Source: Bacillota bacterium (GTDB lineage Bacteria > Bacillota > Sulfobacillia > Sulfobacillales > JAIMBI01). Taken from it: DNA of 43,183 nt. A program made the position numbers and the translations under genes. Of this stretch, positions 19,384 through 24,492 are shown piece by piece. The notes beneath the pieces were generated by a model that saw nothing but the letters and a program-made list of their open reading frames with translations, ran no database searches and had not been told where the DNA came from. How positions within the stretch are numbered: the stretch's first letter is position 1; every line of letters starts with the position of its first letter. The stretch covers positions 1-43,183 of the forward strand of contig JAJZWV010000031.1 of NCBI GenBank assembly GCA_021846505.1, read 5' to 3'.

Positions 19384-19394
<11 letters not shown>

Positions 19395-20145
19395 GCGGCA
19401 CCCGGCCTAGGCGCGCGGCCAGCCACAGTCCATGCACCAGCCCGCGCTGGGACACTTCCAGGGCGGGAGCCCCCAAACTGTCCATGACATGGAGCAGCGA
19501 CCGAATGCCGCCGGGCAGCAGCGCCGCGCGGGCCGGATCCACGCCCTGGCCCGCAGCGCAGCGTGCGACTTCACTCGGCCGCTGACTCCAGCCCACGAGC
19601 GCGGGGCGCTCGAGCCGCGGGCTGCCAGCCATGGCCGCCAGCGCCACGGCTGTGCCGCCCACCGCCACCAATTCTCGGGCGCCCGGTGCCCACGGCGCGT
19701 CAAGCCGGGTGCCCCGGCAGGGCGGGCGCGCCGCCCCAAAGGGCCAGGACGCGGCGGCGCAGCCATCGCACAGTTCGGTGCTGGCGCCCCCCACGTCCAC
19801 CACCACGGCCGGCCGGTCCCGGCCGGCCTGGACGCCCCACCACGTGCACTGGGCTTCTTCGGTCCCAGACAGCTGCCACACCGGCCATCCCCACCGGGCC
19901 AGCCAGTCGGCCAGCTCCGGGCGCAGCCGGCCCACTTCCCCGATCCCCACCAAAGCCTGGCGGGGAAGCCACGCCGCCACCTCAGCCAGCACCGGTGCCA
20001 GCCGATCCCTGAGGGACGGGGCGTCTACCAGTCCCAGCAGCCACACGCGGTAAGCGTCGGGATGGGACAGCCGGTCGGCCCCGAGAGCCGCCACGCTGGT
20101 GGAGCCAATCTTGAGCGCCGCGATGCGGCGCGCTGAATTCGCCAT
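19384..20145 (-). CDS. Ppx/GppA-like phosphatase
   Basis: A protein of about 253 residues with the actin-like ASKHA fold of exopolyphosphatase/pppGpp phosphatases. Seen are LKIGSTSVAAL at the start (phosphate 1 loop), ISGxEEA-type LSGTEEAQ, VVVDVGGASTEL (phosphate 2 loop) and LVAVGGTAVALAAM. Two departures are notable: the first loop usually reads ID(I/L)GSNS, and its Asp is Lys here; the protein also lacks the 50 or so residues of usual C-terminal length. Activity is therefore uncertain. The ATG at 20145 lies only about five bases after the predicted transcription start, so the message may be leaderless. It heads the mutS-mutL-miaA unit. Confidence 0.75.
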
Positions 20146-20155
20146 CTTGCCACGC

Positions 20156-20161
20156 ATTATA
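20156..20161 (-). promoter_or_regulatory. -10 box of the ppx-mutS-mutL-miaA unit
   Basis: A perfect TATAAT on the minus strand ends eleven bases before the ATG at 20145. Initiation would fall 4-6 bases from the ATG, leaving no room for a ribosome site. Confidence 0.5.
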
Positions 20162-20172
20162 GCCGACTCGGG

Positions 20173-20181
20173 TGATACAAT
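20173..20181 (+). promoter_or_regulatory. Extended -10 promoter for the nitrilase operon
   Basis: TGATACAAT (TGn plus TACAAT) points toward the nitrilase-like genes and is back to back with the TATAAT of the ppx unit. Confidence 0.45.
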
Positions 20182-20228
20182 TGCTCCATTCGACGCGGTC
20201 AGCACACCGGGTGATGGGGGGCGGGTAG

Positions 20229-20300
20229 ATGGTCGAGATCCGCTGCTCCCCGCTGGGCGGGTATGGGGCGCCATCGGCTCGGACAAGTGGCCACCCATGA
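20229..20300 (+). CDS. Possible 23-codon leader ORF
   Basis: An ATG preceded by a G-rich GGGGGGCGGG stretch opens a 23-codon frame (MVEIRCSPLGGYGAPSARTS...) that ends with TGA overlapping the ATG of the next gene as ATGA. It may be a coupled leader peptide. Alternatively it could be the true N-terminus of the next gene displaced by a frameshift. Neither is proven. Confidence 0.35.
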   Translation: MVEIRCSPLGGYGAPSARTSGHP

Positions 20301-20965
20301 TTCGGCTGGAGACGCTCTCCTACTGGCGCGGGGATCGCCTCCCCAATACGTGGGGCCCCGCCAGTGATCTCATCTTGCTCGATTTGCTTCAGTGGCCGCC
20401 TCGCCCCCAGATGGCGCGGTGGGCCGACGGGGCCCAGGTTCCCACGCTGGTGGCGGCCCGCGAGCCCGATGGCGGGTCCCGCCGGGCCGATTTGTACGAT
20501 GGCCAGGGGCGGCTCGTTGGGTCCCAGCTGCAAACCCACCGCGCGCCGGGCGCCGACGAGCCCTCGGTGCTTGGCGATGACATACACGTGTTTGACTTGG
20601 GCGGCCACGCGGTCGGCCTGCTGGTGGGGGAGGACCTGCTGGTGCCCGAAGTCAGCCGCACCTTGACGCTGATGAACGCCGAGCTGCTGATCGCGCTGGC
20701 GGCGCCGCGGCTGCCCGAGTATTTGGGCATCTGGCGCGAATCGCAGCAGAATCAGGTGATTGGCTTTGGCGGGGGTGCTCCCCCCCTTCTGACGGTTCCC
20801 TGTGAAGCCGACCCGGAGGAAGCTGGCTTCCTGCCGGTGGAGTCGCTGTCCGACTGGGTACGCGCCAGCGTGCCCTGGGGTTCGCTGGCCATCGCCCGCG
20901 AGACCGCCCTGCTCACGCAGCTGAACCCCCGGGCTTACTTGGCTCACCCGTGGTGGTCCGCATGA
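20297..20965 (+). CDS. Nitrilase-fold protein without catalytic residues
   Basis: A protein of about 222 residues that follows the carbon-nitrogen hydrolase fold but not its chemistry. The segment VGLLVGEDLLVPEVSRTLTL aligns with the nitrilase GVxICYDxxFPE...L strand-helix, with Gly111 in place of the nucleophilic Cys. The QTHRA stretch stands for KxHL with the Lys lost, and LLDLLQWPP stands for VFPE with the Glu lost. The next gene overlaps its stop (ATGA) and encodes an intact nitrilase, so this is probably a non-catalytic partner or sensor subunit. It could instead be a decaying duplicate, though the frame is clean. Start ATG 20297 is the first after the leader ORF. Confidence 0.65.
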   Translation: MIRLETLSYWRGDRLPNTWGPASDLILLDLLQWPPRPQMARWADGAQVPTLVAAREPDGGSRRADLYDGQGRLVGSQLQTHRAPGADEPSVLGDDIHVFDLGGHAVGLLVGEDLLVPEVSRTLTLMNAELLIALAAPRLPEYLGIWRESQQNQVIGFGGGAPPLLTVPCEADPEEAGFLPVESLSDWVRASVPWGSLAIARETALLTQLNPRAYLAHPWWSA

Positions 20966-22035
20966 ATTGGGAGCTGGCGCTGGGGCGGGCGTTTCTCACG
21001 CGGCGCGTCAGCCAGGAGCGCCGGCGGGTGCAGGTGGTGCAGCGCCGGGCTGGGCCTGCGCGGTGGCGCCGTGACGCGCTGGTGGTGGCGGGGGTCCAGT
21101 GGGACATGCGGCCGGTGGCCAGCGCCGCCGATTGGACGGCGCGCTTGGTCATTCAGTGCGATCTCGCCGCGCGGGCCGGGGCGGCGCTCCTTGTGTTTCC
21201 CGAGTACATCGGGCTCTCGCTCTTGGGCCTGCTGTCGGAGCATCGGGCGCTTCGGACTGCGTCCGCCGCGGCGCTCTCGCCGGCCGATGTGGCCGTCCGG
21301 CTGGCCGCGTGGGCTCCGGTGGTGGTGCCCCTGTACCGGACGGTGTTCTCTCGGCTGGCGGCCGCCTATGGCATCACCGTGGTCGCGGGATCCACCTTGG
21401 TGGCGGAAGGCGAGCGGCTGGAAAACCAGGCGCATGTGTTTGGCCCCGACGGGCGGCTAATCATGGTTCAGCCGAAGCTTCACCTGCTGGCGGTCGAGTC
21501 CCAGTGGGGGGTGGTGCCCGGCTCCGCGATGGCCCCCATCGCCGGGCCGCTCCCGCTGCAGCCTGTGGTATGCTACGACGCCAGCTTTTTTGAAACCTAC
21601 CGCCTGGCGAGGAAGCAAGGCGCAGAGCTGGTGGCCGTGCCGGCGTCGGATCCCGACCCGGCGTATCTGACCGCCAAAGCGCGCCGAGGTGCCTGGGCGC
21701 GGACGCAGGAATCGGGTCTGGTGTCGGTCGTGGGGGCGGGCACCGGCGAGCTTTATGGCATTCTGTTCACGGGTAAGGCGGCGGTGTACGCGCCGATGGC
21801 CGAGACGCCCGCGGGCGACGGCATCTTGGCCGAAAGTCCGCACCCCGACGGCGAAGGGGTGGCGGTGGCGACCGTGAACCTGGAGCGGCTGCAAGAGTAT
21901 CGGCAGGACGTGCCCACCGCCCGACCGGACCGGGTGTCCGACTGGCTGGGGCCGCGATATGAAGCCCTGCTGCCTTGGCTGAGCGGATCGGCCCCGGGTC
22001 CGCGGGCCCACCCCCCCACCGCCAGCGTCCGGTAG
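20962..22035 (+). CDS. Nitrilase / carbon-nitrogen hydrolase
   Basis: A 357-residue hydrolase with the complete Glu-Lys-Cys triad: Glu81 in VFPEYIG, Lys172 in QPKLHLL and Cys204 in VCYDASFF. Such enzymes hydrolyse amides or nitriles or transfer acyl groups. An N-terminal extension of about 40 basic residues precedes the domain and may bind a partner or nucleic acid. ATG 20962 overlaps the previous stop; the track's GTG three codons earlier is less likely. The substrate cannot be assigned. The catalytic-dead neighbour suggests a two-subunit assembly. Confidence 0.85.
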   Translation: MNWELALGRAFLTRRVSQERRRVQVVQRRAGPARWRRDALVVAGVQWDMRPVASAADWTARLVIQCDLAARAGAALLVFPEYIGLSLLGLLSEHRALRTASAAALSPADVAVRLAAWAPVVVPLYRTVFSRLAAAYGITVVAGSTLVAEGERLENQAHVFGPDGRLIMVQPKLHLLAVESQWGVVPGSAMAPIAGPLPLQPVVCYDASFFETYRLARKQGAELVAVPASDPDPAYLTAKARRGAWARTQESGLVSVVGAGTGELYGILFTGKAAVYAPMAETPAGDGILAESPHPDGEGVAVATVNLERLQEYRQDVPTARPDRVSDWLGPRYEALLPWLSGSAPGPRAHPPTASVR

Positions 22036-22100: not shown

Positions 22101-22673
22101 ATGCACGCGCTGACCGCACTGGCCACCGGATTTTTGACCCTGGGCCTCTGGGGAGTTTTCGTCGGGATGGCACTGGAAAGTGCCGCCATCCCGATTCCGA
22201 GTGAGGTGCTCCTGCCCTTTGCCGGCTACTTGGTAGCCGTGGGGCGGGCCACCTGGTGGGAAGCGGGCCTCGTGGCGCTCGTGGGCGGCACGCTGGGCGC
22301 GGTTGTGGCCTACGGCGTGGCTTACTGGGTCGGCCGAACCTGGGGCAGCCACTCACACGGCTTGGACCGGGCCCAGCGCTGGTTTGAGCGCTATGGGGAG
22401 GCGGCGGTGTTTTTCGGACGCTTGGTGCCGGGTGTCCGCACCTACATCTCCCTGCCGGCCGGCCTGGCCCGGATGCGCTTCGGGCGGTTTTTGGGCTACA
22501 GCGTCTTAGGTGCTCTGCCGTGGACCGTGGTCTTCATCTATTTGGGTGTGCAGTTCGGCACCAATTGGCACCAGGCGCTCCATGACCAAGTATGGGTGTA
22601 CGCGGTCGGTGCGGTGGTGGTGCTGGCATGGGCCGTGTGGTTCCTAAACCGCCGGCGCGGCGGGGTGGCCTAG
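22101..22673 (+). CDS. DedA-family membrane protein
   Basis: A 190-residue DedA/VTT-domain protein. Family members flip or exchange phospholipid carriers (some move undecaprenyl phosphate or phosphatidylethanolamine) and affect envelope homeostasis. The re-entrant motif ESAAIPIPSEVLLPFAG near residue 30 and FFGRLVPGVRTYISLPAG near 115 are diagnostic, including the conserved Glu and Arg. Membrane helices flank both. A GAAGGGGAG site lies before the ATG. Confidence 0.92.
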   Translation: MHALTALATGFLTLGLWGVFVGMALESAAIPIPSEVLLPFAGYLVAVGRATWWEAGLVALVGGTLGAVVAYGVAYWVGRTWGSHSHGLDRAQRWFERYGEAAVFFGRLVPGVRTYISLPAGLARMRFGRFLGYSVLGALPWTVVFIYLGVQFGTNWHQALHDQVWVYAVGAVVVLAWAVWFLNRRRGGVA

Positions 22674-22905: not shown

Positions 22906-23511
22906 ATGTGCGGCCTCGCCTTAGCGTCCCGCCGCGGCTTTGAACCCATCCGGGAAACCTACGGCGCCAGCGTGGGTGTGCGGCAGTTGGTCAAGGAGTC
23001 CTACGAGCGCAGCCATCGGGACAATCCCGCAGCGAAGCTGTTCCTCGGGGAGTGGACCGCCTCGTGCCCCGGAGGACTTGGAGCCGGACGGCTGCCTCTC
23101 CGTGTGCAGAGCCGAGAGAGGGCCAGCTTGGCCCTGGCCCGCCACTCCGTTCGCCCGGGGCGCTTGGAGCTGGACTGGAGAGGGATCGCTGCGTCCCATG
23201 CCGCACATCGGCGGGAGATGCTCCGCTGGCTGGTGGCGACTCCGCTGCGATACGCCGCCTCCAGGGGACTCCGGCCCGCAGATCTGGAGGTGCACTGCAC
23301 CGATGCCGCCAGATGGGCATGGCTTGGGGGATACCCGTTTGCGCCGGCGCCATGTCGGGTGACACCGCGCCGGCCCGCTTCCGCCAGCCTTAGCGCCCCA
23401 GTGGTGCGCGTGGCCGGAGACGGGGGCGGCGAATCCGTCTCAGGGAAGTCCCAAGGCCAGCCAAAATCGCGGGTCTTCATCGCCCAGGCGCCACAGGGCT
23501 ATGCCGGCTAA
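22906..23511 (+). CDS. Unrecognised ORF, possibly a real gene with a damaged 3' end
   Basis: The frame runs 201 residues and its third codon positions are strongly G/C through about 23390, as in genuine genes here. Readable pieces are VRQLVKESYERSHRDNPAAK and EMLRWLVATPLRYAASRG. I do not recognise a family. The last 70 bases overlap the convergent GH18 gene and have shadow-like composition, so the natural end is probably earlier and may be lost by a frameshift. The ATG has only a poor ribosome site. The sequence between dedA and 22906 has no other clear gene. Confidence 0.35.
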   Translation: MCGLALASRRGFEPIRETYGASVGVRQLVKESYERSHRDNPAAKLFLGEWTASCPGGLGAGRLPLRVQSRERASLALARHSVRPGRLELDWRGIAASHAAHRREMLRWLVATPLRYAASRGLRPADLEVHCTDAARWAWLGGYPFAPAPCRVTPRRPASASLSAPVVRVAGDGGGESVSGKSQGQPKSRVFIAQAPQGYAG

Positions 23512-24492
23512 GTGCTTGGCTTTGGCCAGCGCAACCCTAGCCTGGGCCGAGCGGTCTCCCATGTACCACACCACGTGGGTCGCACCGCCGCTGGTGAACC
23601 GAAAGGTGTTTTGCGACTCGGCGGCGTTGTAGGTGGGATGGACTCCGTGCGATTTAGCCAGCGCTTCCGCCTGCACATCCGACACGGTGTGGGCGCTGGT
23701 GCCGACCCAGTTGTAGCCGTACATGCCAATGGCCAGGACGACCTTGGCGGCCGGAACGATTTTAAGGGCCGCGTCGACATTCGCCAGCACCCAGCTGTAC
23801 GGCGCCACGGGACCCGGAGGGCCGCCGCTGTAGTGGTGGTCATACGCCATCACCACCAGATAGTTGGCGGGGGCGGCTAGCCCCGCGTAGCTGTACGCGC
23901 GGCTGATGGACGCCGAGACCCCGACCAGCGGAAACACGGACACGGCCACCACCGGCCGCGGCCCGACGTCATGGCGCACCAGCGACACGAAGTCGGTCAG
24001 CCCGGTGCGTGCGCTGGCGGGCAGCAGCTCAAAGTCGATGTTGACCCCGTCCAGGTGGTCCTTCTTGATGAGTGCCGCCAGGGCGTGCGCGCCGCGGGCC
24101 CGGACACTGGCGGACGTCAGCATGCCGCTCCCCACATTGGTCACCAGCGGCACCAGCAGCACGTGGTGACTTTTCGCAAAGCTCGCGACCGAGGGCTGGT
24201 ACCCGATGCTCCGGATAGCCCCCGCGCTGTTCATAGTGAACCAGCGCGGGGTCACCGTGGTGATGGCCCGCGCATGTGCTTCAAACGATGCGCGGGATCC
24301 TGGCCGGGCACTGCCAGGACTTTTGTCCTGGTAGAACCCCACAATCTGAAATCGGCCGCCCAAGGTCATGGGAGCGGCCGGGCCACGGGCCGCACTGGCC
24401 AGCCACCATGCCAACAGCAGGGCGGCCACCACCCCGGCCGCCCACAGTGTCGCCGAATATCGCTGATGCCAGCGCCTCACGGTCTCGTTCAT
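23440..24492 (-). CDS. GH18 glycosidase of the YaaH/YdhD spore type, anchored
   Basis: A 350-residue protein. Residues 14-34 form a single N-terminal membrane anchor or uncleaved signal. The rest is a GH18 barrel with the catalytic DxxDxDxE motif as LDGVNIDFELLP near residue 147, VMAYDHHY and ALWRLGDED. The DGVNIDFE form is typical of spore cortex/coat glucosaminidases such as YaaH (SleL), but the LysM domains of those proteins are absent. It probably cuts peptidoglycan or cortex outside the membrane. Confidence 0.9.
   Translation of the reverse strand: MNETVRRWHQRYSATLWAAGVVAALLLAWWLASAARGPAAPMTLGGRFQIVGFYQDKSPGSARPGSRASFEAHARAITTVTPRWFTMNSAGAIRSIGYQPSVASFAKSHHVLLVPLVTNVGSGMLTSASVRARGAHALAALIKKDHLDGVNIDFELLPASARTGLTDFVSLVRHDVGPRPVVAVSVFPLVGVSASISRAYSYAGLAAPANYLVVMAYDHHYSGGPPGPVAPYSWVLANVDAALKIVPAAKVVLAIGMYGYNWVGTSAHTVSDVQAEALAKSHGVHPTYNAAESQNTFRFTSGGATHVVWYMGDRSAQARVALAKAKHLAGIALWRLGDEDPRFWLALGLP

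Follow-up and report, generated by a model that had tools for sequence, protein, structure and literature searches.

The window, the whole 43,183-nucleotide stretch of DNA analysed here, carries a compact run of three forward-strand reading frames. The first is a short ORF of 23 aa (MVEIRCSPLGGYGAPSARTSGHP; 20229..20300), the second (P) specifies a catalytically dead nitrilase homologue of 222 aa (20297..20965; codons 20297-20962 plus a TGA stop), and the third (Q) specifies a nitrilase-superfamily hydrolase of 357 aa (20962..22035; codons 20962-22032 plus a stop). Two ATGA overlaps read from the sequence join the frames, one between the stop of the short ORF and the start of P (20297-20300) and one between the stop of P and the start of Q (20962..20965), the latter a likely site of translational coupling. 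An earlier note on this DNA had described both overlaps, and its coordinates and frames are right. Immediately 3' of Q is a gene for a DedA-type (VTT domain) membrane protein (22101..22673, forward strand), and nearby, on the reverse strand, is one for a GH18-type protein with an N-terminal hydrophobic segment (23440-24492); both are conserved in the order to which the window belongs. On the other side, and outside the P-Q pair, a divergent Ppx/GppA-like gene (19384..20298, reverse strand) is followed by mutS and mutL. Its longest-ORF start is doubtful because it overlaps the short ORF, and has probably been set too far upstream. Throughout the order, the pair lies beside this divergent ppx-mutS-mutL group with the DedA gene next, and a DedA neighbour is found at 22 of the 89 non-redundant loci collected, on the same strand in all of them. 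A scan of the intergenic region for sigma-70 promoters and terminators found none.

The short ORF had been proposed as a leader belonging to the system, a proposal that fails beyond the genus. Three other genus members carry short ORFs of 20 aa that end in the same NTGA overlap, and in these three of the four genus species a GGAGGTG motif lies about 7 nt upstream of the short-ORF start. In the sister genus, the place of the short ORF is taken by the end of a dacF-like gene. This gene, for a D-Ala-D-Ala carboxypeptidase, ends at the start of P in 14 genomes of the order, and the genus of the window has no dacF at that position. Judged from this arrangement, the short ORF most likely preserves translational entry, or coupling, for P after a change of the upstream gene.

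Q is a member of the Pfam CN_hydrolase family (PF00795; E=5.6e-14, 52.5 bits against a cut-off of 23.2). Its catalytic residues E81, K172 and C204, together with the second glutamate, E179, are invariant in 32 aligned rows, and in a wider set 81 of 87 Q rows retain all three of the catalytic Glu, Lys and Cys. Of the other six, four are pieces of sequences that are broken or split, and two are lineages with an altered Cys. In these two (L130:231-1407, reverse strand, and L177:6553-7750, forward strand), the nucleophile is replaced by G or T, and in L177 the Glu is also changed to Asp, so that both partners may be dead there. The earlier note had credited Q with a complete triad and an extra basic N-terminus. 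The triad and an arginine-rich extension are indeed present, but this genome is not alone in having one, since many Q relatives are extended at the N-terminus. Neither P nor Q fits any curated NCBIfam equivalog, the best amidase/nitrilase equivalog score for Q being 38.3 bits against a cut-off of 500.

P alone just misses the CN_hydrolase cut-off (E=1.1e-4, 22.1 bits against 23.2). A profile built from ten full-length P relatives matches solved nitrilase-superfamily structures with E-values down to 1e-20, and these are largely the structures matched by Q. The AlphaFold2 model of the window's P, computed with 31 relatives in the input, has a pLDDT of 90.1 and a pTM of 0.88. By homology and fold, as judged from the relatives' profile and this model, P belongs to the nitrilase superfamily. 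In the joint alignment, L, Q and G occupy the positions of E81, K172 and C204 of Q, which bears out the earlier description of the first protein as nitrilase-like with Glu, Lys and Cys lost; the profile matches and the confident structure model, the latter a check named there, point to a nitrilase-like protein and not to the unrelated one that would have spoken against the description. The loss is general: among 88 P rows, 76 keep none of the three residues, 12 keep one and none keeps two. The Lys is absent from all 88 (Gln stands there in 66), the Glu is retained in four and the Cys in eight. Since no row keeps two catalytic residues, the idea that P is an active paralogue in other lineages was discarded. 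Within the order of the window, P has diverged strongly and measures only about 194-222 aa, having lost much of its N-terminal half.

What remains most conserved in P is a PE..R motif after the former nucleophile position, a W...Q.NQ motif in the next helix, and PCE (residues 168-170). The residues P117, E118, R121, W146, Q150, Q153, G177 and Y214 are invariant, while PCE is near-invariant and specific to P, with C in 77 and E in 84 of the 88 rows; Q has no conserved Cys at this place. A P-specific Cys-Glu of this kind, together with the invariant Q150 and Q153 and the 12 rows that retain one catalytic residue, is what might be expected if P were still an enzyme with a relocated site, for instance at the PCE cysteine, acting on another bond of the same molecule. 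We regard this as very unlikely, given that the PCE Cys is itself replaced in 11 P rows, mostly by Val, that none of the rows has the Lys and few have the Glu or Cys, and that no precedent for such a relocation was found in the superfamily.

The pair is widely conserved. A sample of 61 genomes around that of the window was searched for Q orthologues (E below 1e-40), and 32 were positive, its own genome counted; P lies directly upstream of Q in 32/32. Since Q was searched independently of P, this co-occurrence is not an effect of search design. The two genes overlap in 30 of 31 compared pairs, by 4 bases (NTGA) in 22, by 1 in four, by 8 in two and by 14 in two, exact lengths that are biased towards four because the start chosen was the codon nearest a four-base overlap; the remaining pair is separated by a 4-base gap. 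In a sample of the phylum, adjacent double matches to the P profile occur in 67 of 398 genomes, from 35 families. Loci fetched with this profile hold P by construction and were excluded as evidence of linkage. Named records with the pair are mostly Bacillota MAGs, some of them labelled Symbiobacterium, Thermaerobacter or Syntrophomonadaceae. The P-Q pair is thus no local oddity but is present across much of the phylum. The earlier note had named failure of the pair to recur in other genomes as a reason to abandon its idea, and the opposite was found. Its remark that pseudoenzyme/enzyme nitrilase pairs are rare stands for the literature searched but not for the genomes sampled here.

Between genus members, dN/dS is 0.10-0.16 for P and 0.13-0.19 for Q, and P, with a ratio as low as that of Q, is therefore a maintained protein. 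Selection and conservation together rule out a random open frame or a pseudogene. P could in principle be a decaying duplicate that has no role and is kept by its operon position only, and it does diverge faster than Q between the window and the sister genus (34-37% against 51% identity), besides being shortened in the order. Such decay is scarcely credible, however, and is largely refuted by selection and co-occurrence: dN/dS is low, the P frame is intact in nearly all genomes, the two genes occur together strictly, and they are sometimes fused. When other nitrilases from the same genome serve as outgroups, a maximum-likelihood tree places P in one group (SH-aLRT 96) and Q in another (80), values that come from a quick method and long branches. 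The simplest account of these groups and of the residue pattern would be one ancient duplication, after which the Lys disappeared early.

Natural fusions bear on the relationship between the two proteins. P and Q form one ORF in seven loci, of which L107, L109, L110 and L111 belong to one family and L145, L162 and L175 lie elsewhere, and in most of them the joining segment includes a basic stretch where the N-terminal extension of Q sits. The fused L175 protein was modelled with AlphaFold2 from an alignment of fusions and single Q sequences only, single P rows being left out because MAFFT had aligned them to the Q half. The model has a pLDDT of 86.8 and a pTM of 0.88 across 618 residues, with a low-confidence linker of 30 residues. 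A lower pTM would normally be expected of two domains that are not fixed relative to each other, and the value for L175 suggests a defined packing of P against Q in the fusion. The natural fusions speak for a physical association of the two proteins and for their being made 1:1, and a predicted P-Q hetero-oligomer, with its subunits made equally, is the arrangement favoured by the evidence. A P-Q interface would likewise be predicted from the pTM and the conserved motifs. Adjacent conserved genes and fusions can, as a counterpoint, also join successive enzymes that make no dimer-type contact.

It has also to be considered that P is a ligand sensor or carrier instead of a structural partner, with a partly kept pocket that binds substrate or product and signals to Q or feeds it, PCE being the binding site. 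The near-invariance of the P-specific Cys-Glu, with a Cys not conserved in Q, would fit such a role, and two papers describe pseudoenzymes as often regulating their active relatives (PMC11266112, PMC10211241). The tight gene overlap and the fusions, on the other hand, speak for a permanent 1:1 complex, and much of the N-terminal half of P is lost in the order of the window, so we consider a sensor or carrier unlikely.

A dead and a live copy that are kept adjacent, and sometimes fused, in dozens of Bacillota families make P very probably a working partner subunit. Our preferred reading, which we consider likely from the comparison of sequences, is that P is the obligate non-catalytic subunit, and Q the catalytic subunit, of a heteromeric amidase. 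P and Q would be the two subunits of one amide hydrolase of the nitrilase superfamily, and the chemistry would be carried out by Q as the sole bearer of a complete Glu-Lys-Cys site. P would have arisen by an old duplication in the Q lineage and have lost its Lys before the family spread; Glu, Cys or both would have been lost later, lineage by lineage, with P retained as a non-catalytic partner. The conserved motifs of P (PE..R, W...Q.NQ and PCE) would be expected to lie where, in this superfamily, one monomer contacts its partner. Superfamily monomers dimerise across the A-surface (PMC4700190), and assembly can switch an enzyme on by ordering its active-site loops (PMC10741476). We infer that P most likely stands in for the second monomer of the usual dimer, a position from which it would hold the active-site loops of Q in the active form or shape the substrate pocket of Q. 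Equal amounts of the two subunits would be ensured by the overlapping genes or by fusion.

The closest precedent is NIT4A/NIT4B of grasses (Poaceae), two nitrilase paralogues that must form a heteromer for activity (PMC3537687, PMC5154151). P and Q are likewise two nitrilase paralogues with one heteromer, which in their case is predicted indirectly from fusions, gene overlap and co-occurrence; NIT4A and NIT4B are plant branch 1 nitrilases, P is without the triad, and nothing indicates a common origin of the two pairs. Beta-ureidopropionase and the spiral nitrilases share the nitrilase fold with P-Q and have an A-surface dimer and assembly-dependent activity (PMC10741476, PMC4700190), but they are homo-oligomers without a dead subunit, and Q is only distantly related to them (2vhh, E 4e-9). 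The Pyrococcus nitrilase/amidase structures 3ivz and 1j31 are the best or near-best solved matches to the P and Q profiles (E 1e-19 to 1e-23); this is a single active enzyme that aligns to part of Q and has no pseudoenzyme partner. In NitFhit, NAD synthetase and Lnt, the nitrilase domain is fused to unrelated domains, with no dead nitrilase copy. Their likeness to P-Q lies in being nitrilase-domain fusions of the Rosetta-stone style (NitFhit, PMC9913352). No nitrilase pseudoenzyme pair and no bacterial hetero-nitrilase was found in the open-access literature, a body of work that leaves most subscription journals outside, and an amide-cutting complex with a dead partner subunit is not described in the literature searched. 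For a superfamily as well studied as this one, no earlier report of a conserved dead subunit was found. Nature provides two-chain and one-chain forms of the same complex as well as graded losses in P (the Lys always, with Glu or Cys remaining in a few lineages), and these make it directly testable how a nitrilase-type enzyme could come to depend on a pseudoenzyme.

In other classes, the pair has different neighbours. A gene for a GH125-like glycoside hydrolase lies within 4.5 kb of the pair at 29 of the 89 non-redundant loci, all outside the order of the window, and on the same strand in 23; a sugar-type MFS transporter (GPH-like) is also present beside 15 of these 29. In one locus, Q itself is fused to a GH125-like glycoside hydrolase in a frame of 1078 aa (L186:5824-9057, reverse strand). 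Among members of the class outside the order, all eight genomes with a strong GH125-like match carry the pair. Linked as it is to a GH125-like hydrolase and to sugar-type symporters, the pair in other classes would seem to act on an amide-bearing glycoside that the cell imports, and its gene neighbourhood suggests a catabolic pathway in Bacillota that is so far uncharacterised. The genome of the window has no match to the GH125-like hydrolase, nor is one found beside the pair in its order, and on these grounds the enzyme was rejected as an explanation of the window's pair. A broader proposal is that an operon of GH125-like hydrolase, dead nitrilase, live nitrilase and sugar-type symporter serves phylum-wide to import and degrade an amide-bearing glycoside, that the pseudo-nitrilase is obligate, and that the pair has been re-used near dacF/dedA for another purpose in the order of the window. 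We put this forward tentatively, as somewhat less probable than even.

In one lineage group, the hydrolase is replaced by a 4HBT thioesterase gene directly 3' of Q (L164, L165, L167, L170-L172, L174 and others). Such a neighbour was seen at 14 of the 89 loci, at two of them further off. A second adjacent pair of CN_hydrolase genes, adjoined by a urocanase gene, is present in the genome of the window (G000:C53, at about 49-51 kb; L007:484-2010 and L008:1117-2373, both on the reverse strand). The 508-aa protein has FPE and the Lys, a long C-terminal part and apparently no nucleophile Cys (LLLGPDAL), while the 418-aa protein has FPE, Lys and CYD. From these motifs, the two are possibly another dead/live pair.
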